Position numbers and translations under genes: made by a program
Shown here: piece by piece, positions 2,876 through 34,274 of the stretch
Position numbering within the stretch: position 1 is the stretch's first letter
Layout: every line of letters starts with the position of its first letter
Assembly (NCBI GenBank): GCA_016191555.1
Contig: JACPVX010000037.1
Location: forward strand, 62,001 to 126,000
DNA: 64,000 nt
Reading direction: 5' to 3'
Source of the DNA: Bacteroidota bacterium
GTDB taxonomy: Bacteria > Bacteroidota > Bacteroidia > Cytophagales > Cyclobacteriaceae
The notes under the pieces: generated by a model
Database searches by the model: none
The model's input: the letters and a program-made list of their open reading frames with translations, nothing else
What the model was told of the DNA's origin: nothing

Positions 2876-5272
2876 ATGAGGCTTGCCTTTCTTTTATTGA
2901 TTTTTATGCCTTTAGCCGGCTGGGCGCAGCCTTGTACGTTTCGTGTTTCGGGTAAAGTGGAGGATGAACGCGGCATGCCGTTGGTAGGGGCTACTATCCA
3001 ATTAATCAAAGAAAAAAAAGGTACGATTTCCGATGAGGCCGGGAAGTTTGAGTTTACACAACTCTGTGCGGGCAAGTATGAGGTAGAGATTCGGTACGTT
3101 GGCTACCAAACCATTACAACCAGCCTGAAGGTGCCCTTGAATAAATCCTGGATCATTACTATGCAAGGGGACAGCACCTCGCTTAACGAAGTGGTGATCG
3201 AAGATAAACATACCAATGTAGCAGTCACATCTACCTACAGTTCCCTTTCGGGAAAGTTATTAGAAGAAACGATGGGCAAGTCGTTGGGCGAGTCGATGCG
3301 CGAGATTCCGGGTGTCAACAGCATTCAAACAGGCCCCGCCATTTTCAAACCGGTTATTCATGGGGTGCATAGCCAACGTGTATTGATTTTAAATAATGGC
3401 ATTCGGCAAGAAGGACAAAACTGGGGAGTAGAGCACGCTCCGGAAGTAGATCAGTTTATCGCCTCAAATATTATTGTGATCAAAGATGCAGCCGCTATCA
3501 AATACGGAGCGGATGCGCTGGGTGGCGTGGTGCTTGTTAACCCGGCCAAGCTGCCGACTGAAGCAGGTATAGGAGGACAACTCCACACGATTGTTGCTTC
3601 TAATAATGGCTCGGGTGTTATATCCGGATTTTTAGAAGGAGGTTCAAAAAAATGGCCGGGCTTTGGGTGGCGCGCACAAGGCACGATCAAAAAAGCAGGT
3701 GATTCACGAGCAGCAAACTATGTTTTATCCAACACCGGCTTTGAGGAACAAAATTTTTCTTTGTCTACTGCTTATCACACTGAAAAAAGTGGCATTGATA
3801 TTTTTTATAGTCACTTCAACACCTCCATTGGCATTTTAAGAGGTACCGCGGTAGCTACAGCGGAAGATCTGGCCATAGCGCTTGAACGCGATGTACCCCA
3901 ATACACCACTGATTTTACCTACGATATTAAGCAGCCACGCCAATCCGTTCAACACGATCTGATCAAGATCAATGCACATCTGGAAAAAGGAAAAAATGAA
4001 TTTCGGTTGCAATATGGCTTTCAGAGCAATCGCAGAACCGAATATGATTTTCGTCTGGGGGCTCTTACCGAAATTCCAGCTCTGGGATTTCAACTTTATA
4101 CACATACACTCGATGCCGAGTGGCAGCGAACCCATTCCACTCGTTGGCAAAGCAGTTGGGGCATCAATGCTCTCTATCAAACCAATAGCAAGGTAGATGG
4201 CACACAAACCATTCCATTTATTCCCAATTTTGATCACATCACCACCGGGCTATTCTTGGTAGAAAAACTAACGCTTCGAAAGTGGATGCTCGAGTTGGGC
4301 CTGCGCTACGATGTGAAAAAGTATGATGTAGCCGGGTTTGATTTTAAGAATAAACTATACCGGTCGTCCATTGATTTTCAGAATGCCAGCGGAACGGTTT
4401 CAGTGAAGCGAAAACTAAATAACAGTTCTACATTCACCAGTTCGCTCAGCAGTGCCTGGCGTCCGCCCAATATGGCCGAGTTATACAGCATTGGCACACA
4501 CCAAAGTGCCGCGTCAATTGAGTACGGATTATTGTTGAATGAAATCACATCCGAAGTAAAGCCTTATGAAAAATCGGGTGTGAAGGTGGAGAAAGCTCTT
4601 AAATGGGTGGTGGGCTATAAACTCGATCGCCCACGTTTTACAACAGAGATAACCGGCTATGTCAATTATATTTTTGATTTCATCTACCTCCAACCACGCG
4701 GAGTTACACAGGGTCTGCGCGGTATTTTTCCGTACTTCCGCTATACGCAAACCGATGCTTCATTTATAGGCATTGATTTCTTTTCAAATTACAAAATCAA
4801 CTCATTTTGGACCCTTACGGGGAAAGCCTCTTATCTACGCGCAACGGACGAAACGCAAAAAGATTTTCTGGTATTTATTCCGGCCAATCGGATCGATCTC
4901 GGAATCAGGTATGAATCCGATCTTGAAAAAAAATGGAGTTGGAGTGCCGAATCGAAATTGAGGTGGGTAGCCAACCAATCGCGCGCACCGCAGATAATTA
5001 CGCCCCGTCAGATTATCGAAGCACAAGCGCAAGGCATTGATATTGTCGCGCAGCGTCCTGGAAACTTTGACTTTAAAGCTGCTCCGGGTGGTTATGCCTT
5101 GATTTCTCTTTCCGTGAGCACAACATGGAAACTAAAAAGTTCGAAGTTCGAAATTAGGCTCTCTACTGATAATTTGACCAACCAATTGTACCGGGAATAC
5201 ACTAATCGGCTCCGCTATTTTGCCGATGATGTAGGCCGAAACATCACTCTTGGCCTTCATTATAGCTTTTAG
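2876..5272 (+). CDS. TonB-dependent outer-membrane receptor
   Basis: 798-residue TonB-dependent transporter. A signal peptide (residues 1-18, ending GWAQ) is followed by a carboxypeptidase-regulatory-like beta-sandwich (about 25-105, VSGKVEDERGMPLVGATIQL), a plug domain (about 115-225, with IHGVHSQRVLILNNGIRQ and IKYGADALGGVV) and a 22-strand barrel ending in an aromatic residue (LHYSF). The plug sequence with NGIRQEGQNWGVEHAPE resembles receptors for metals such as zinc (ZnuD-like) more than SusC-type glycan receptors. The next gene is a lipoprotein behind a matching operator, which supports a co-regulated uptake pair. The true substrate is not proven. Confidence 0.88.
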   Translation: MRLAFLLLIFMPLAGWAQPCTFRVSGKVEDERGMPLVGATIQLIKEKKGTISDEAGKFEFTQLCAGKYEVEIRYVGYQTITTSLKVPLNKSWIITMQGDSTSLNEVVIEDKHTNVAVTSTYSSLSGKLLEETMGKSLGESMREIPGVNSIQTGPAIFKPVIHGVHSQRVLILNNGIRQEGQNWGVEHAPEVDQFIASNIIVIKDAAAIKYGADALGGVVLVNPAKLPTEAGIGGQLHTIVASNNGSGVISGFLEGGSKKWPGFGWRAQGTIKKAGDSRAANYVLSNTGFEEQNFSLSTAYHTEKSGIDIFYSHFNTSIGILRGTAVATAEDLAIALERDVPQYTTDFTYDIKQPRQSVQHDLIKINAHLEKGKNEFRLQYGFQSNRRTEYDFRLGALTEIPALGFQLYTHTLDAEWQRTHSTRWQSSWGINALYQTNSKVDGTQTIPFIPNFDHITTGLFLVEKLTLRKWMLELGLRYDVKKYDVAGFDFKNKLYRSSIDFQNASGTVSVKRKLNNSSTFTSSLSSAWRPPNMAELYSIGTHQSAASIEYGLLLNEITSEVKPYEKSGVKVEKALKWVVGYKLDRPRFTTEITGYVNYIFDFIYLQPRGVTQGLRGIFPYFRYTQTDASFIGIDFFSNYKINSFWTLTGKASYLRATDETQKDFLVFIPANRIDLGIRYESDLEKKWSWSAESKLRWVANQSRAPQIITPRQIIEAQAQGIDIVAQRPGNFDFKAAPGGYALISLSVSTTWKLKSSKFEIRLSTDNLTNQLYREYTNRLRYFADDVGRNITLGLHYSF

Positions 5273-5296
5273 TTTGCATTATTCAACATTAGGCTT

Positions 5297-5317
5297 TATT
5301 ATTGCAACATTGTTGCA
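5297..5317 (+). promoter_or_regulatory. Promoter with overlapping palindromic operator (lipoprotein gene)
   Basis: TATTATTG (5297-5304) is a -7-like element. It runs into a perfect palindrome TGCAACA-T-TGTTGCA (5303-5317). The GCAAC half begins on the last G of the -7 element, exactly as at 2853-2875. It lies 18 bases before the start codon at 5336. The same repressor probably controls both genes. Confidence 0.62.
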
Positions 5318-5335
5318 TTAAATAAAAAAACTATT

Positions 5336-5938
5336 ATGAAAAGCCTTCGATTTGTCTTTTTGGTGTTGATGTGTGGCACTTTAGTGTTTTTGGGGAGTTG
5401 TTCTAAAGATGATCCGAAACCTGAAAACATTCCGGAAGCGATCACCAAAGCAACATTTACATTTACCCCGGCCTCCGGAAGCCCGATAGTAGTAACCGCA
5501 ACAGATCCGGATGGAGACGGCCCACAGACCAGAGTGCTAAGTGGCCCCATCGCGTTGACAAAAAACACTACCTATACATTAACCATCACCATGATTAATG
5601 AACTGGCTGCCACCACAGCTCCAGAGTATAACGTAACAGCCGAAGTAGAAGAAGAGTCAGATGAGCACATGTTCTTTTTTGCCTGGACGAATAACACATT
5701 TTCAAATCCGGCTGGCAATGGAAACTTCGATACACGTACAGACTTGGTGAATTACAATGATAAGGACGCCAATAATTTGCCGTTGGGTCTCAATACAACC
5801 TGGACAACCATCAACGCAACCGGTAGTGGCAAATTCAGGGCTGTGTTGAAACATCAGCCTGATTTGAAATCGGCCACTAGTACATCTTCAGATGGTGAGA
5901 GTGATTTGGACGTGGAGTTTGACCTTACTGTAAACTAG
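5336..5938 (+). CDS. Lipoprotein paired with the TonB receptor
   Basis: 200-residue lipoprotein: signal peptide with lipobox LGSC at about residues 19-22, followed by an acidic linker (SKDDPKPE) and a beta-rich domain. The sequence EESDEHMFFFAWTN and a final acidic strand are the most distinctive parts. I do not recognise a defined family. Similar lipoproteins sit beside metal or haem TonB receptors in Bacteroidota. It shares a palindromic operator with the receptor gene 63 bases upstream, so a role in binding the same substrate at the cell surface or in the periplasm is plausible. A terminator follows at 5969. Confidence 0.7.
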   Translation: MKSLRFVFLVLMCGTLVFLGSCSKDDPKPENIPEAITKATFTFTPASGSPIVVTATDPDGDGPQTRVLSGPIALTKNTTYTLTITMINELAATTAPEYNVTAEVEEESDEHMFFFAWTNNTFSNPAGNGNFDTRTDLVNYNDKDANNLPLGLNTTWTTINATGSGKFRAVLKHQPDLKSATSTSSDGESDLDVEFDLTVN

Positions 5939-28994: not shown

Positions 28995-29843
28995 CTAATT
29001 CAAAGATTTTGGGGTAGATAGTTCGCCCATGCCCATCCGATCGCACTTCATCAGCAAATCTTGTAAGTCGGCACCTTTTCCCCGCAAAGGGTCGATGGCT
29101 TTTACCAATCTGGTTCGCATGTCAAAAAGTTCATCACGATCAAATTTTTTAGAGCCTCTAACGAGATCGAGTTGATTCAATGCCTCTTGTTGATTTTGCT
29201 TAGGATTGAACATGCCATTAAGCTCAGAGCATTGGTTGCACACGCCATTTTTGTTGATCAGCGCACAGCGGTTGTCGAAGATGTCCATCATCGTATGGCG
29301 TGCATCCTGCAATAGATGTTTTACCACATCTTGCGATTTGTCCATGATGACGGCAATTTCTTTGACAGAGAAATCATAGATGTCCTTTAAGATCAGCGCT
29401 ACTTGTTTTTCGATGGCTAGTGTTTTGCCCATGCAGGTGAAGCAGTGGTCGATGTGGTCGCGCATATCGAACGTTCCTTCGGGAGATTCTTGTCCTTTTT
29501 TCAGAATGGAGTTGCGTACCGTTTCATTGCTCATCACTATGCCTTTGGCGATCTCTTTCGTGTTCACAGTCCAGCGTTTGAATTGTCGCAAGTGATCGTA
29601 CGCCAGGTTAGTAGCAATTTGAAACATCCATGTTTTGAAAGACGATTTGCCCTTGAAGGTAGACACCTTGTCAAACCCGCGAATGAAGGCATCGTGTGCA
29701 ATGTCTTCTGCGTCCTCACGACTGGCCACCAATCGATACAAATACGTAGTGAGCTGCGGTTGAAATTCGGCATACAATTTTTGAAACGCATGAATATCGC
29801 CACCCATGGCGAGCTTTAAGGTTTGTTCGTTGGAGTTTTCCAT
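28995..29843 (-). CDS. ECF sigma factor with cysteine-rich linker and C-terminal extension
   Basis: 282 residues. The sigma2 region is at about 10-90 (YLYRLVASREDAEDIAHDAFIRGF, FKTWMFQIATNLAYDHLR) and sigma4 at about 140-188 (LILKDIYDFSVKEIAVIMDKS). The linker between them holds HCFTC (Cys134, Cys137), and an extension of about 95 residues after sigma4 holds Cys193, Cys202, Cys205 and Cys267. No anti-sigma gene is adjacent. Paired cysteines in the linker plus a cysteine-rich tail recall CorE-type (ECF44) sigma factors, which sense metal redox state directly. It is the last gene of the operon NTF2-like / SDR / sigma, nine bases after the SDR stop. Confidence 0.87.
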   Translation of the reverse strand: MENSNEQTLKLAMGGDIHAFQKLYAEFQPQLTTYLYRLVASREDAEDIAHDAFIRGFDKVSTFKGKSSFKTWMFQIATNLAYDHLRQFKRWTVNTKEIAKGIVMSNETVRNSILKKGQESPEGTFDMRDHIDHCFTCMGKTLAIEKQVALILKDIYDFSVKEIAVIMDKSQDVVKHLLQDARHTMMDIFDNRCALINKNGVCNQCSELNGMFNPKQNQQEALNQLDLVRGSKKFDRDELFDMRTRLVKAIDPLRGKGADLQDLLMKCDRMGMGELSTPKSLN

Positions 29844-29852
29844 GGTATAAAA

Positions 29853-30599
29853 TTAACGAATTGGATTTTTAGGATTGACAATCGAAAAGGCAAGCGAAGA
29901 AAAAAAACGATGCAAATAAGAAAAAGATTTTGCGATAGAAACATGAATTGTAGAGCGATTGTTTTTCAAGCCATTCACTACGTCTTTCGCCACGCGCTCC
30001 GCTGAAACTTTCGCTGACGTAAAAATTTTTGTGGCTTCTGTGTCTACCGTGGGTGGTATCAACTCTATCACGCTTATATTCTTGTACAACTCGCGTAGTT
30101 GATAGCGAAGCGATAATACATACGAATGCAACGCAGCCTTTGAGGCGGAGTAAGTGGGTATAAAAGCGGCAGGCAAATACGCTACTGCCGAAGTTGTAAA
30201 AACAAACGCTGCTTCTTTTCGCTTTGCTAGTTCCGGTAAAAACAAACTGGTGAGCCGTACAGCCGATAAATAATTCGTTTCCATTTCGTTAGTCGCAATA
30301 GTAATGGCTGTTTTTTCAACGAGCGAATTCACACTCACAACACCTGCATTGTGATACAAAATATCGATACCGCCACTGCTCATGACCAACTGATGCATCA
30401 AACTCACGTCTTCTTCTTTGGTGATGTCACAACTAATAGTGGCGATGGATGGAAATTTACTTTTTGCCAATTGTAATTTAAGGCCATCTCGACCGCAAAT
30501 GATAACCTTCATTCCTTCCGTTAAAAAGTGTTTGATGCTTTCCAGTCCAATACCCGAAGAGCCACCGGTGATCAAAATGGTTTTGTCCTTCAGTTGCAT
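29853..30599 (-). CDS. Short-chain dehydrogenase/reductase (classical)
   Basis: 248 residues. The NAD(P)-binding motif TGGSSGIG is at 11-18, HNAGVVS near 83-89, and the catalytic Tyr150 and Lys154 are in YSASK. The pattern is that of DltE-like classical SDRs, with a C-terminal hydrophobic tail. It probably oxidises or reduces a carbonyl/alcohol. It lies two bases after the NTF2-like gene and nine before the sigma factor, so all three share the element at 30969. Confidence 0.9.
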   Translation of the reverse strand: MQLKDKTILITGGSSGIGLESIKHFLTEGMKVIICGRDGLKLQLAKSKFPSIATISCDITKEEDVSLMHQLVMSSGGIDILYHNAGVVSVNSLVEKTAITIATNEMETNYLSAVRLTSLFLPELAKRKEAAFVFTTSAVAYLPAAFIPTYSASKAALHSYVLSLRYQLRELYKNISVIELIPPTVDTEATKIFTSAKVSAERVAKDVVNGLKNNRSTIHVSIAKSFSYLHRFFSSLAFSIVNPKNPIR

Positions 30600-30601
30600 T
30601 C

Positions 30602-30946
30602 TTAATAGAAATATTTTTCCAAAATCACTTTTCCTTCCTTCACTTCGTATACACCAATTTCTTTCCAGCCTCCGCGCGGTTGGCCTTTGTAGGTTACATC
30701 CCAGGTAAAAGCCACGCTAAAAAAGTTTCCATTCACTAACGGCTTTGAGATTTTTAGGCTGTGGATTTTCTCCATGCTGCCCATCCAGGCCTTTTGTTTT
30801 TTGTCGAGTGCCTTCAGGCCTTTCATTTTTTTCTTGTCGGCCTCTTGGCATACTACCTCCTCGGCAAACAATTCGTGGCGGGCTTCGCTGAATTTTTTCT
30901 TCGCACAGAGCGCAATCATGCGCGTAGCAATTTGTTTTGTTGTCAT
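30602..30946 (-). CDS. NTF2/SnoaL-like small protein
   Basis: 114 residues with the cone-shaped alpha+beta NTF2 layout: N-terminal helices (ARHELFAEEVVCQEADK) followed by strands (FFSVAFTWDVTY, IGVYEVKEGKVILEKYFY). The family includes polyketide cyclases, ketosteroid isomerases and non-enzymatic ligand binders. First gene of the sigma factor operon, with a conserved promoter-like element 22 bases before its start. Confidence 0.82.
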   Translation of the reverse strand: MTTKQIATRMIALCAKKKFSEARHELFAEEVVCQEADKKKMKGLKALDKKQKAWMGSMEKIHSLKISKPLVNGNFFSVAFTWDVTYKGQPRGGWKEIGVYEVKEGKVILEKYFY

Positions 30947-30968: not shown

Positions 30969-30998
30969 AGACGAACAGGTCGGCCAAAACGGGCGGAA
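30969..30998 (-). promoter_or_regulatory. Conserved 30-base element A (putative ECF promoter)
   Basis: On the minus strand it reads TTCCGCCCGTTTTGG, then CCGACCTG, then TTCGTCT. CCGCCC and CGTC lie 17 bases apart, as ECF -35 and -10 elements do. The element ends 22 bases before the start codon of the NTF2-like gene, so it would drive the operon that encodes the sigma factor. It agrees at 21 of 30 positions in common with elements B and C. Confidence 0.65.
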
Positions 30999-31013
30999 CT
31001 TTAATAAAAAAGA

Positions 31014-31033
31014 TTGCCCGCATTGGCGAGCAA
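31014..31033 (-). terminator. Terminator of the SDR-like gene
   Basis: Stem TTGCTCGC / GCGGGCAA (one mismatch) around a four-base loop, followed on the minus strand by TCTTTTTT. It lies between the stop of the SDR-like gene at 31178 and element A. The opposite side also has a T-run, so it may work both ways. Confidence 0.65.
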
Positions 31034-31177
31034 CTCTTTTTTTGGTTTAAATACATAGAACTTCCTGTTTTCATATTCTGACATGCTGGTTTTACGGGTT
31101 GTTTTTCCCCCAACTAAACCGTGGAAATCAATATGAAGCCCAATGAGTTCTTGTTTCTTGCTTTTAGGATTGGTGAT

Positions 31178-31987
31178 TTAGATCACCATCATACTGCCAA
31201 AGTCTACATCAATGATGTGGCTGTTCAATGCAGCTCCTGCATCAGAGACAAGGAAGGAAGCTACATCGCCTACTTCTGTAAGGGTTGGCGTGCGTTTGCC
31301 TGCCAACAAGTGCGCGCCTGTTTGCATTCCTTTCAAAGCCTCACCGGGTATGCCCATGGTCTTCGCTAAGTTGGCGTTCGACTCTTGAATAGAGCGCGAC
31401 TCAAACAAGGCGGTAGAATTCAAACCGATTACTTTAATTCCAAAATTTCCAAACTCGGCAGCCAATACACGCGTCAATCCTTCTACCGCTGTGCTGGCTG
31501 ATGAAATGCCCGCCATGAACGGCAACTTTAATCGCGACAAGCTGGAAGTAAGCGTGAGAATGGTTCCTTCGCTTTTCGTTTCAACCATATACCGGGCTGC
31601 AATTTTGGAGGTGAGAAACTGCGATCCAACAATTGTTGTGAGTGGCTCGAGAAAATGCTCTAACGATGTGATGGCGGTTGGTAGACCCATGCTGACATCA
31701 TTGGCACGTACACCAATACCATTAAACACAATGTGTAGTTTGCCATTGTCATCTGAAATCTTTTTCAGATAGGTGTCGATCTGACTTTCGTTCAGTGCAT
31801 CTACCTGATGTGCTTCGGCTTTGCCACCGGCTTGATTGATTTCTTCGGCAATTTTTTTTACTTCCTTCAGGTTTCTACCGGACAAGTAAACTTTTGCACC
31901 GTGTTGTGCAAATGATTTTGCGACTGCACTAGCAATCGCTCCGTTGGCTGCAAACACAGCCGCTACTTTGTTTTGTAAAGTTGACAT
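31178..31987 (-). CDS. SDR-fold protein lacking the catalytic Tyr and Lys
   Basis: 269 residues from ATG 31987. The Rossmann start VAAVFAANGAIASAVA replaces the usual TGxxxGIG. The place of the catalytic YxxxK is taken by ISSAS (Ile161, Ser165), just before the well-kept AVEGLTRVLAAEFG. It therefore cannot use the classical proton relay. Non-catalytic or altered-mechanism SDRs of this type exist. An earlier Met at 32029 falls inside element B, which supports the start used here. Element B lies 27 bases upstream. Confidence 0.8.
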   Translation of the reverse strand: MSTLQNKVAAVFAANGAIASAVAKSFAQHGAKVYLSGRNLKEVKKIAEEINQAGGKAEAHQVDALNESQIDTYLKKISDDNGKLHIVFNGIGVRANDVSMGLPTAITSLEHFLEPLTTIVGSQFLTSKIAARYMVETKSEGTILTLTSSLSRLKLPFMAGISSASTAVEGLTRVLAAEFGNFGIKVIGLNSTALFESRSIQESNANLAKTMGIPGEALKGMQTGAHLLAGKRTPTLTEVGDVASFLVSDAGAALNSHIIDVDFGSMMVI

Positions 31988-32014
31988 AAATTGATTTTTT
32001 GGTTTATGCGGTTG

Positions 32015-32044
32015 AGACGAATAGCTCAACCAAAATGGGCGGAA
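32015..32044 (-). promoter_or_regulatory. Conserved 30-base element B (putative ECF promoter)
   Basis: Minus strand: TTCCGCCCATTTTGG, then TTGAGCTA, then TTCGTCT. Same length and spacing as elements A and C. It stands 27 bases before the start of the SDR-like gene. Confidence 0.65.
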
Positions 32045-32174
32045 TATTTTACAATGATTCCCTCACGTTGCTGCAATTAGGTTGTTGATTTTGTCGATTG
32101 ACGGACAATTGTCTTTTTTCTCACGCGATGGTGAAGGGAAAACACTTTCTTTGAGAAATAAATTTAAAAGCTAA

Positions 32175-32633
32175 ATGATTCGACTAACAATCCAACAAGA
32201 CCTGCATGCATTGAAACAGGTAATTGATTCCACCGGCTTGTTCCCATCGGAATTATTAGAGGGCATGACTGCGGATTTTTTATCGAACCCCGAATCCTCA
32301 GATAAATGGTTGACGAAAGAAGAAGGAGGTGTGCCTATAGGTGTAGCGTATTATGCGCCCGAGCGACTTACCGAAGGAACGTACAATCTATATCTGATAG
32401 CAGTTCGTACAGAAGATCAGGGAAAAGGCATAGGCGCGGAGATCATGAAATATGTCGAAAAGAAACTTCTTCGGGAAGGTCATCGGGTTTTAATTGTGGA
32501 GACATCGTCATTGCCTGAGTTTGAAGCCACCCGAAATTTTTACAAAAAACTTGACTATACCCAAGAGGCCACCATCCACGATTTCTACAAGCAAGGCGAG
32601 CATAAAATTATCTTTTGGAAAAAATTGATATAG
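32175..32633 (+). CDS. GNAT family N-acetyltransferase
   Basis: 152 residues with a GNAT fold. The acetyl-CoA pyrophosphate loop is in LIAVRTEDQGKGIGAEIMKYVEKKL (about residues 74-98), and a late EATRNFYKKLDYTQEATIHDFY matches the family's C-terminal strand region. Acceptor unknown. It is the only plus-strand gene among the elements, and it is bounded by a bidirectional terminator at 32659. Confidence 0.88.
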   Translation: MIRLTIQQDLHALKQVIDSTGLFPSELLEGMTADFLSNPESSDKWLTKEEGGVPIGVAYYAPERLTEGTYNLYLIAVRTEDQGKGIGAEIMKYVEKKLLREGHRVLIVETSSLPEFEATRNFYKKLDYTQEATIHDFYKQGEHKIIFWKKLI

Positions 32634-32658
32634 GATAAGTTTCGTACGCTGAATAGCA

Positions 32659-32688
32659 AAAGCCATTCTCAGCATAGAGAATGGCTTT
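32659..32688. terminator. Bidirectional rho-independent terminator
   Basis: Perfect 12-base stem AAAGCCATTCTC / GAGAATGGCTTT with a six-base loop between the converging GNAT and APCDD1-like genes. Confidence 0.85.
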
Positions 32689-32710
32689 ATTTATTTCAAC
32701 AAACTGACTT

Positions 32711-33298
32711 CTACTTTTTCACAACAGCTGGAGTCAATTTAGTAGGCCTTTTTTCAGGAGAACACATATTGTTATCAGAAGGGCGCTCGCCAAAATAAAG
32801 TTTGCCTTCTTTATCCAACGAAAGCAAATCGTAATCGCCCGGACAATCGGCAACAGATTGCCATGCTGAGCAGCCTGTAATCGAAATATCTTTTTCTACA
32901 TCTTTTGTCAAGTTGCAGGCGGCAAAGCCAAAGGCTTGAATCAAATTAGCATCAGCTGTTTTAAGCGTTACCCATTTTTTGTCTTCATAGAACACAGCAT
33001 TGTACGCGTTGTCAACTGCTTTGGATTTGTCTAACACTTTGTAAGTGCCTTCGGTTCGGAAAGTGAAGACTTGCATCTTCAATTCGGGGTCGAGCCCCAG
33101 CGTGAAGTGAAGTGTCCACTTTCCTTTATCAAAAGTGAATACGCGTTTGCCCCACGCTTTACCGTAGTTGTACGGAGCAGGGTCGGCATAGGTGCCTGAT
33201 AATTTTTCCAACGCAGTTTTGCTGTCGGTGGTATTGGTGAAACTGAATGCGAGGGCAATGGCTACCATCAGCCCCACTGCAAAAAATAGTTTTTTCAT
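32711..33298 (-). CDS. Secreted APCDD1-like protein
   Basis: 195 residues with signal peptide (about 1-22). The mature part has distinctive runs GTYADPAPYNYGKAWGKRVF, KMQVFTFRTEGTYKVL, FGFAACNL, KLYFGERPSDNNMC and KRPTKL, with four cysteines. I believe this matches bacterial relatives of APCDD1, a domain first known from vertebrate Wnt inhibitors, but I could not check. It acts outside the cytoplasm, and its ligand is unknown. Element C, 24 bases before its start, ties it to the sigma factor operon. Confidence 0.6.
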   Translation of the reverse strand: MKKLFFAVGLMVAIALAFSFTNTTDSKTALEKLSGTYADPAPYNYGKAWGKRVFTFDKGKWTLHFTLGLDPELKMQVFTFRTEGTYKVLDKSKAVDNAYNAVFYEDKKWVTLKTADANLIQAFGFAACNLTKDVEKDISITGCSAWQSVADCPGDYDLLSLDKEGKLYFGERPSDNNMCSPEKRPTKLTPAVVKK

Positions 33299-33322
33299 AT
33301 TGTTTTGGTTTGTTTGTCCTTC

Positions 33323-33352
33323 AGACGAACGAGTGAACCAAAACGGGCGGGA
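33323..33352 (-). promoter_or_regulatory. Conserved 30-base element C (putative ECF promoter)
   Basis: Minus strand: TCCCGCCCGTTTTGG, then TTCACTCG, then TTCGTCT. It lies between the stop of the SnoaL-like gene and the start of the APCDD1-like gene, 24 bases before the latter. Confidence 0.65.
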
Positions 33353-33375: not shown

Positions 33376-33729
33376 TCAGGCGATGAATCTCTCTCTCATA
33401 ATCTTACCGTCTTTCCAATCCTGAATGGCGACTTGCACTACTTTGATGGATCCATTTATAGCGTGATCGAAGTCCAGTGACCACACAAGAAAACTGCGAT
33501 TGCCTTTAATGATTTTACCTACGGCTGTAAAATCGCGGATTGCTTTTACATTCGATAAGAGTTCATTCCCGATTTTTGTGTTGAGTATTTTTCCATGGTG
33601 CGTCACACCATCTAAATCCGTTTTTTCGATTTCATCATGATAAAATTTGTCAAAAGCCTCCATAGGTTTGCCTTGCGACACCAGTGAAATCAATTCTTCC
33701 AATGATTGTGCGATTTGTTGTTCTGTCAT
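33376..33729 (-). CDS. SnoaL/NTF2-like protein
   Basis: 117 residues from ATG 33729. N-terminal helices (IAQSLEELISLVSQGKPMEAFDKFYHDEIE) are followed by GVTHHGK and strands ending VQVAIQDWKDGKIMRERFIA, the SnoaL-like pattern. It is divergent from the HxlR gene, with a shared 161-base control region that holds the palindrome at 33864, so HxlR control is likely. The upstream in-frame Met at 33771 is less likely. Confidence 0.78.
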   Translation of the reverse strand: MTEQQIAQSLEELISLVSQGKPMEAFDKFYHDEIEKTDLDGVTHHGKILNTKIGNELLSNVKAIRDFTAVGKIIKGNRSFLVWSLDFDHAINGSIKVVQVAIQDWKDGKIMRERFIA

Positions 33730-33863
33730 AATAGTTGATTTTAAATGGTTAATAAGATTTTCACAGAGCAACTTTTTGCTTGCGCTTTGAGTTGTTCCGT
33801 AATTAGCGGAGCAAAACTATTTGCCGTGTAGGCGCCTCACAAGAAGGCACTAAATTGTAGACA

Positions 33864-33881
33864 GGTTACTAAAAAGTTACC
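33864..33881. promoter_or_regulatory. Palindrome before the HxlR gene (putative HxlR operator)
   Basis: GGTTACT-AAAA-AGTTACC, six of seven arm positions complementary, nine bases before ATG 33891. It resembles the TTACTA...TAGTAA boxes of the HxlR proteins YodB/CatR. Binding would repress the HxlR gene and could also affect the divergent SnoaL-like gene. Confidence 0.5.
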
Positions 33882-33890
33882 AAGCTGGAT

Positions 33891-34274
33891 ATGAATAAAT
33901 TGACTTCTACTTTTTCTGTAAACAAAGAGCGCATTACCAACAATTGCCCTTTGACCAGTTCATTACTTTTGATTAGCGGCCGATGGAAGCTGATCATCAT
34001 CTGGCAATTGAAGGATGGCACCTTGCGATTTAGCGATTTGCAAAAAGCCATTCCGCACACCTCCAAAAAAATGCTGACACAACAATTAAAAGAGCTGGAA
34101 AACGATGGATTAGTAAGTAGAAAAGTTTACCCGGAGGTACCTCCAAGGGTTGAGTACACATTAACCGATTTAGCGAGCTCGTTGATGCCGATTTTGGAAA
34201 GTCTTTTAAATTGGGGGGTGGATCACAACATTATCGAACATGTAAAAAAGGGAGACAGCCAAAACTCTTTATAA
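33891..34274 (+). CDS. HxlR family winged-helix regulator
   Basis: 127 residues of the HxlR/MarR-like winged helix: CPLTSSLLLISGRWKLIIIWQL near the start, FSDLQKAIPHTSKKMLTQQLKELENDGLV as recognition region, and the wing VPPRVEYTLTDLA. Cys19 is in the position of the conserved redox Cys of HxlR proteins that sense quinones and other electrophiles. Divergent from a SnoaL-like gene, with a palindrome at its own start. Confidence 0.9.
   Translation: MNKLTSTFSVNKERITNNCPLTSSLLLISGRWKLIIIWQLKDGTLRFSDLQKAIPHTSKKMLTQQLKELENDGLVSRKVYPEVPPRVEYTLTDLASSLMPILESLLNWGVDHNIIEHVKKGDSQNSL

Follow-up and report, generated by a model that had tools for sequence, protein, structure and literature searches.

The 64,000-base window analysed here (contig JACPVX010000037.1, from a bacterium of the Cyclobacteriaceae in the Bacteroidota) carries three minus-strand transcription units, one of which is an operon holding the gene for an extracytoplasmic function (ECF) sigma factor (Table 1). 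An acetyltransferase gene on the opposite strand lies between two of these units. Each unit is preceded by a 30-base element (30969-30998, 32015-32044 and 33323-33352), and a scripted recount found the three elements identical at 21 of 30 positions and placed 22, 27 and 24 bases before the ATG codons at 30946, 31987 and 33298. These values agree with the original prediction, in which the three equally long elements had been read as likely promoters of the sigma factor encoded in this locus. From the comparisons described below we conclude that they are very probably promoters read by this factor, which would control its own gene as well.

The sigma protein matched Pfam Sigma70_r2 (8.3e-18) and Sigma70_r4_2 (2.5e-6), with no other family above the cut-off, and the NCBIfam sigma70-ECF superfamily model at 73.3 bits (cut-off 42.9). 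Its best matches in the PDB were ECF-type sigma factors, with alignments spanning regions 2 to 4. Regions 2 and 4 are its only promoter-binding parts, as in ECF (group IV) factors.

Table 1. Features of the sigma factor locus (minus, plus: strand; R1, the genome-search model described in the text; 24/24, present in all 24 aligned sigma sequences)
Feature	Position	Strand	Description	Evidence
Candidate promoter 1	30969..30996	minus	Before the SnoaL_5/SDR/sigma operon; -35 CCGCCCG at 30990-30996, 16-base spacer, -10 CGTC at 30970-30973	Exact match; rank 1 of 127,934 with distant-site matrix; R1 E 8.1e-6 (R1 training site)
Candidate promoter 2	32015..32042	minus	Before the second SDR gene; -35 CCGCCCA at 32036-32042, -10 CGTC at 32016-32019	Exact match; rank 3 with distant-site matrix; R1 E 4.5e-4 (R1 training site)
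Candidate promoter 3	33323..33350	minus	Before the APCDD1-like gene; -35 CCGCCCG at 33344-33350, -10 CGTC at 33324-33327	Exact match; rank 2 with distant-site matrix; R1 E 7.8e-5 (R1 training site)
SnoaL_5 protein	30602..30946	minus	First gene of sigma operon	Pfam SnoaL_5 2.6e-28
SDR oxidoreductase	29853..30599	minus	Second gene of sigma operon	Pfam adh_short 1.2e-35
ECF sigma factor	28995..29843	minus	282 aa; region 2, region 4 and a C-terminal extension of about 100 residues	
CFTC motif (C134, C137)	29433..29444	minus	Linker between sigma regions 2 and 4	Both Cys in 24/24
C193 and C202-x-x-C205	29229..29267	minus	After sigma region 4	All three Cys in 24/24
Second SDR-family protein	31178..31987	minus	Target of candidate promoter 2	Pfam adh_short_C2 6.1e-29
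APCDD1-like small protein	32711..33298	minus	Target of candidate promoter 3; signal-like N-terminus (by eye); resembles the C-terminal half of animal APCDD1	
Acetyltransferase	32175..32633	plus	Between two of the units	
HxlR-type regulator	33891..34274	plus	Diverges from a minus-strand SnoaL_5 gene; the pair spans 33376-34274	

A 28-base pattern, CCGCCCRTTTTGG-N7-RTTCGTCT, matched the window exactly three times, each time on the minus strand and without mismatch. No fourth match was found in the 64-kb window when up to three mismatches were allowed, and 100 dinucleotide shuffles of the window gave none. When a 27-base form of the pattern was run against the assembly of the same genome (91 contigs, 4.12 Mb, 76.7% complete), the three window copies were found at zero mismatches, none at one or two and six at three, compared with three matches at three mismatches for the reversed control. 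The whole-genome search suggested with the original prediction thus returned only the three window sites under three mismatches, and a chance origin of the three copies is excluded in the window and in the genome. The high identity of three copies inside one locus could also mean that they are a dispersed repeat or arose by recent duplication, with no role in regulation. However, the spacer letters vary among the three copies whereas the two flanking blocks are constant, and the same blocks and spacing recur across the phylum, as described below. These findings contradict a repeat origin, which we consider exceedingly improbable.

At E ≤1e-40, a homologous sigma gene was present in 14 of 241 genomes of the order, that of the window included, and in 8 of 395 genomes of the phylum, two of which are also among the 14; one phylum genome (G484) carries two copies. 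Contigs of named genomes contributed five close relatives (76-97% identical), whose labels read Flammeovirgaceae, Cyclobacteriaceae or Bacteroidetes. At 20 places, up to 20 kb of sequence around a sigma homologue was taken. The resulting set comprises 24 homologous sigma genes besides that of the window, at loci L024-L028 and L037-L055; L056 repeats L025, and L029 was dropped as a planctomycete match that was 31% identical over about 58 residues. L043/L044 and L045/L046 are near copies. L027 has 34 bases before its sigma gene and was not counted among the 23 readable loci; the rest of L027 contains no exact copy of the motif core defined below. At L042 (9919-10748), in genome G161, the sigma gene is split between two overlapping frames, which may reflect assembly error or decay; for this reason it was left out of the sigma alignment and tree.

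The motif core YCGTTTT-N12-HGTC was found on the sigma strand at 19 of the 23 readable loci (from -2500 to +1200 relative to the sigma start) and on the opposite strand at one. Changing the spacing to any other value from 6 to 20 bases left 0 or 1 of the 23 loci with a match. L039, L040 and L046 contain no exact core but a weaker site, in each case the best same-strand match of the locus, and at L047 a site, CGTCCGAAAG-N12-TGTCTAAG, was recognized by eye directly past the sigma gene, with CCG and GTC kept. Absence of the motif from orthologous loci, which would have spoken against the original prediction, was thus not borne out at the 23 readable loci. The first pattern that we used gave 25 same-strand and 7 opposite-strand matches over 25 loci (L056 counted, L045 twice).

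Matrices were cross-validated in both directions. When about 3.7 kb per distant sigma gene was compared with 500 dinucleotide shuffles each, a matrix built from the three window sites alone was significant (p<0.05) at 12 of the 19 distant loci (Fisher 2.9e-12). With ten sites from the window clade, the site was the best same-strand match at 17 of the 19 distant loci, second at L053 and missing at L047. In the reverse direction, nine distant sites were used, from loci whose sigma factor is 38-43% identical to that of the window (L046 is absent from that identity alignment). The resulting matrix ranked the three window sites 1, 2 and 3 of 127,934 positions, with scores of 26.7, 22.0 and 20.7 compared with 14.2 for the next position. 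The two blocks, at the same spacing, are conserved beside such 38-43% identical sigma factors in other families and classes. The fixed 12-base core spacing and the two-way matrix tests support the reading of these elements as ECF promoters.

Across relatives the conserved letters are CCG plus TTTT and GTC. In 17 thinned sites the information fell into two blocks, C5 with C8-T14 and G28-T29-C30 with A33, while columns 15-20 carried at most 0.3 bits; the total was 34 bits with no sample-size correction. The first letter of the -10 element is mostly C, with T at L037, L038, L040, L041 and L050 and A at L042 and L043. By eye, the letters before CCG partly track sigma subclades (CTATCG at L052-L054, CGCCCG in the window clade), but both main clades include sites with CATCCG and with CGACCG, so the fit is partial. 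The original prediction had set CCGCCC 17 bases from CGTC and had included a TTTTGG block. Of that block only TTTT recurs in relatives, and CCGCCCG with a 16-base spacer describes the -35 element better. As judged from the aligned sequences, the element is predicted to be an ECF promoter of two parts, written CCGCCCG-n16-CGTC, whose -35 is not AAC. AAC and CGT are given as early hallmarks of ECF promoters in the part of a review drawn on here (PMC8103513). The bipartite layout, the CGT in the -10 element and autoregulation, which is often seen in ECF factors, are features that this conserved element has in common with ECF promoters.

An alternative is that the elements are operators of a nearby regulator, either the HxlR-type protein, a CRP-like protein or a LytTR protein. 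The genes for all three are close by and are common to the window and L026 (HxlR and LytTR by Pfam, CRP-like by eye). However, other loci show only scattered, mostly weak matches to these genes (L025, L028, L039, L040 and L041), and the gene common to the loci is the sigma gene. A dyad operator was rejected; the best centre in the motif was only 40% complementary. The two blocks stand at ECF -35/-10 spacing, and no TTTG/TAnnTTTG housekeeping promoter was found within 100 bases upstream of the three starts, even when one substitution was allowed. Operators for one of these regulators are therefore an improbable explanation.

We next considered where the site lies relative to the sigma gene. In the window and at L024-L026, L028, L037-L042, L049 and L050 it precedes a same-strand unit whose last gene is the sigma gene, except that at L024 and L026 it precedes the sigma gene itself, the core starting 53-54 bases upstream of the start codon. 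At L043-L048 and L051-L055 the site follows the sigma gene, and a same-strand gene is next in every case except L043, whose contig ends there. In the sigma tree, from which L042 was omitted and in which L027 was unlabelled, the second set forms one side of a branch with support of 100/99, whereas shuffled labels need about eight changes. Autoregulation, as originally proposed, is thus supported for the window clade, in which the site precedes the sigma unit, but not for the whole family, because in the other clade it lies downstream of the sigma gene.

To search whole genomes we used R1, a sequence-only model of 25 sites from which the sites at L039, L044 and L047 and that of the APCDD1-like gene at L026 were left out. 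It was applied to 24 genomes, of which 10 carry the sigma gene and 14 lack it; training sites match by construction. All 12 matches at E <0.05 fell at sigma loci, and the 14 genomes with no sigma match, all of the same genus or family, gave nothing better than E 0.114. Genome G064 (100% complete) has a third site, outside the training set, before its second SDR gene (E 0.0016); the three sites of the window are thus all present in G064, with no other at E <0.05. R1 may miss weak sites because 150 first-look candidates were scored per genome. The bare core CCGTTTT-N12-HGTC gave fewer matches than its reversed control in 18 of 20 whole genomes and an equal number in 2, and therefore the bare core is unable to list a regulon. 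Thus, the possibility raised with the original prediction, that the motif is equally frequent elsewhere, was not borne out: the window genome has no good extra copy and 14 of 14 sigma-less relatives have none, but the bare core is not enriched genome-wide. As a separate observation, bare-core matches at G000:C30:27816-28132 and G000:C32:143850-144082 are spaced at multiples of 42 bases, which suggests 42-base repeat arrays.

These genome searches also bear on whether the elements could be promoters of another ECF sigma factor, or be read by more than one ECF factor in the cell. The same review describes a CGT -10 as common to ECF promoters (PMC8103513), and 11 to 73 first-look candidates for the sigma protein per listed genome suggest that other ECF genes may exist. 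However, the motif stands beside sigma genes of the window type and not in 14 relatives that lack this gene despite their first-look candidates, and its -35 is not the generic AAC. We therefore regard recognition by another or by several ECF factors as unlikely, and promoters of the window sigma remain the preferred reading.

The last 101 residues of the sigma protein matched no Pfam family at E ≤5. An alignment of 24 sigma sequences, with that of the window included and L042 left out, contained 27 invariant residues; among these are H130, found in 24 of 24 sequences, C134, C137, C193, C202 and C205. No anti-sigma factor was found among the ten neighbouring genes scanned. By analogy with CorE-like factors and OrbS (see below), the six invariant Cys/His residues are probably the sensor of the sigma factor. 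The further step, that the factor senses its own signal through a cysteine switch, is in our judgement evenly balanced between right and wrong.

Several results weigh against these conclusions. The -35 element is GC-rich and lacks AAC, unlike the usual ECF -35, and the L047 site has lost TTTT. With both strands considered, the ten-site matrix ranked the site first at only 14 of 19 distant loci. The window-only matrix missed p<0.05 at 7 of 19 distant loci, its top match was not the site at L040, L044, L047 and L052, and on the opposite strand it gave p<0.05 at 2 of 19, which is slightly non-random (Fisher 0.04). In addition, the combined Fisher value for the sigma strand is too optimistic because of the near copies L043/L044 and L045/L046. 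R1 did not list the L039 site of genome G227, gave the G097 site only E 0.13 and gave the second copy in G484 only E 0.077. Finally, AlphaFold, run on six sequences, gave a sigma model with a mean predicted local distance difference test score (pLDDT) of 46, falling below 50 from residue 134 onward; it was not used, and it gives no support for the cysteines lying close together.

The putative targets in the window are a second SDR-family enzyme, an APCDD1-like protein and the two genes that precede sigma in its operon. A second-SDR gene was found at E ≤1e-40 in 4 of 241 order genomes, 3 of them with the sigma gene; at L042 and L049 a homologue of this gene stands between the site and sigma. 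At L025 (about 5150-5430) the second SDR gene is apparently frame-slipped (tblastn match from residue 42), and the promoter site is kept. Elsewhere in the family, where one or two examples of each were scanned, neighbours included SDR, zinc-type quinone reductase (ADH_zinc_N), SnoaL_5, DUF6855 and TfoX_N proteins, an alpha/beta hydrolase, a beta-lactamase-like hydrolase, DoxX at L039 (below cut-off at L049) and SRPBCC proteins (Polyketide_cyc2 at L044 and L051, below cut-off at L053). The gene past sigma at L047 (3373-3884, minus strand), the locus whose promoter lost TTTT, lies in two open frames of 62 and 110 aa that by eye resemble parts of one SRPBCC-like protein. Beyond the third site in the window, the divergent minus-strand SnoaL_5 and plus-strand HxlR-type genes form a pair that is conserved at L026; no copy of the sigma motif was found between them.

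The product of 32711-33298 is a possible bacterial relative of APCDD1, as judged from profile and structure comparisons. A profile of nine homologues matched mouse APCDD1 in the PDB (8e0r_A, E 5.3e-8). The match covers residues 285-441 of the 468 in the chain, presumably the second barrel, and aligns two cysteines. Foldseek with a weak model (pLDDT 55) also placed APCDD1 first (E 6e-4, template modelling score 0.39, root-mean-square deviation 10); this model and the PDB profile share sequences. Pfam APCDDC was reached only at E 0.061 in one of the nine members, and not in the window protein. In the part of the APCDD1 report drawn on here, ABD2 holds a large hydrophobic pocket and homologues are spoken of in animals (PMC10193966). 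The APCDD1-like gene was found at E ≤1e-10 in 5 of 241 order genomes, 4 of them with the sigma gene nearby. The exception is G066, in which it stands beside a SnoaL-like gene (36% identical to that of the window) and, by eye, SDR-like genes; G066 has no listed sigma match, and no motif was found there at two or fewer substitutions in 3.5 kb around the target-like genes. At L026 the APCDD1-like gene is the immediate upstream neighbour of the sigma gene, and both have a site of their own; in the window the acetyltransferase gene, two SDR genes, one SnoaL_5 gene and two of the three promoter copies lie in between. The link to the APCDD1 barrel, if confirmed, would matter beyond the sigma locus.

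We infer that the window sigma binds the three sites and sets their transcription starts. Region 4 would read the -35 (CCGCCCG plus TTTT) and region 2 would melt the -10 (CGTC), with the 16-base spacer fixed. One promoter would drive the operon holding the sigma gene, making the system positively autoregulated; the other two would drive the SDR-family enzyme and the APCDD1-like, probably secreted, protein. The linker and the C-terminal extension between them hold an invariant His and five Cys that are likewise invariant, so the factor probably acts as its own sensor; metal bound at these residues, or thiol chemistry there, could hold it inactive or switch it on. Family-wide, the targets comprise oxidoreductases (SDR and zinc-type quinone reductase), DoxX and small folds with ligand pockets (SnoaL, SRPBCC and the APCDD1-like barrel). 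The most likely signals are therefore metals, thiol-reactive compounds and hydrophobic organic compounds. We propose only tentatively, and with less confidence than the cysteine switch itself, that this is a Bacteroidota family of self-sensing ECF factors in which H130/CFTC of the linker and C193/CxxC of the extension bind metal or are modified by electrophiles, with a -35 class of their own, YNNCCGTTTT. On this reading one protein would be sensor, switch and sigma factor, and would control a compact cassette directed at small molecules that are hydrophobic or reactive, one member of which is a bacterial relative of the lipid-binding barrel of APCDD1, a Wnt inhibitor of animals. To our knowledge few ECF regulons have been mapped in the Bacteroidota. 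For a sigma factor known here from genome sequences only, these results provide a predicted promoter, compact and with a -35 unlike that of most ECF factors, together with a small predicted regulon and specific candidate sensor residues.

Among the matches listed in the open-licence literature, no paper named the window sigma family in its title or the start of its abstract, and none had a title relating CCGTTTT to a sigma factor promoter. Indibacter is a genus of the Cytophagales. The ECF248 group, whose type member is from Indibacter, was considered and rejected as a poor fit; the portion of its description used here gives glycosyltransferases as conserved neighbours (PMC8999054). Motif SM6 of Flavobacterium psychrophilum, another species of the Bacteroidota, resembles the window element as a promoter class of the ECF type with a CGT box, but the genes under it are those of type IX secretion and of an ECF/anti-sigma pair (PMC9723704). 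Matches to a CorE family model have been counted in marine bacteria (PMC10141476), a count which, in the part available, does not settle the place of the window sigma.

Three further described systems resemble the window sigma; the likenesses are drawn from excerpts of the cited papers. OrbS of Burkholderia cenocepacia senses Fe(II) through C-terminal cysteines, an on-board iron sensor (PMC9023288). By description it resembles the window sigma in its C-terminal cysteines, which in the window factor are a putative built-in sensor, but OrbS acts on siderophore genes and is itself under Fur control. In CorE-like factors two features are essential, a CxC motif in the linker and a cysteine-rich domain at the C-terminus (PMC8999054). 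CorE and CorE2 (formerly ECF44, now partly ECF238) share with the window sigma the cysteines of linker and C-terminal extension; they lack an anti-sigma factor, and none was found among the ten genes scanned around the window sigma. Compared with CorE as described, however, the linker motif of the window family is CxxC in 24 of 24 sequences rather than CxC, and none of the genes seen beside its sigma factors is for metal efflux. Beyond region 4 the window family has three Cys that are invariant, set here against a CorE cysteine-rich domain known by description only. ECF41 of Bacillus licheniformis and Rhodobacter sphaeroides uses the promoter TGTCACA-n16-CGTC (PMC3426412). Like the window sigma, beside which no anti-sigma gene was found in the ten genes scanned, it has no such gene, a fused C-terminal regulatory extension, a non-AAC -35, a 16 ± 1 spacer and a CGTC -10, and its regulon is limited to adjacent decarboxylase/oxidoreductase/epimerase genes. 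The n16 spacer and CGTC agree with those of the window, but the -35 is CCGCCCG here and TGTCACA there. The window extension also differs in that it matches no SnoaL or other Pfam domain (SigJ model 55.7 bits, cut-off 271) and bears invariant cysteines, whereas SnoaL-type proteins are encoded by separate adjacent genes. By the sequence features tested, the window sigma is thus a member of neither the ECF41 nor the CorE group, yet it is predicted to work like both.

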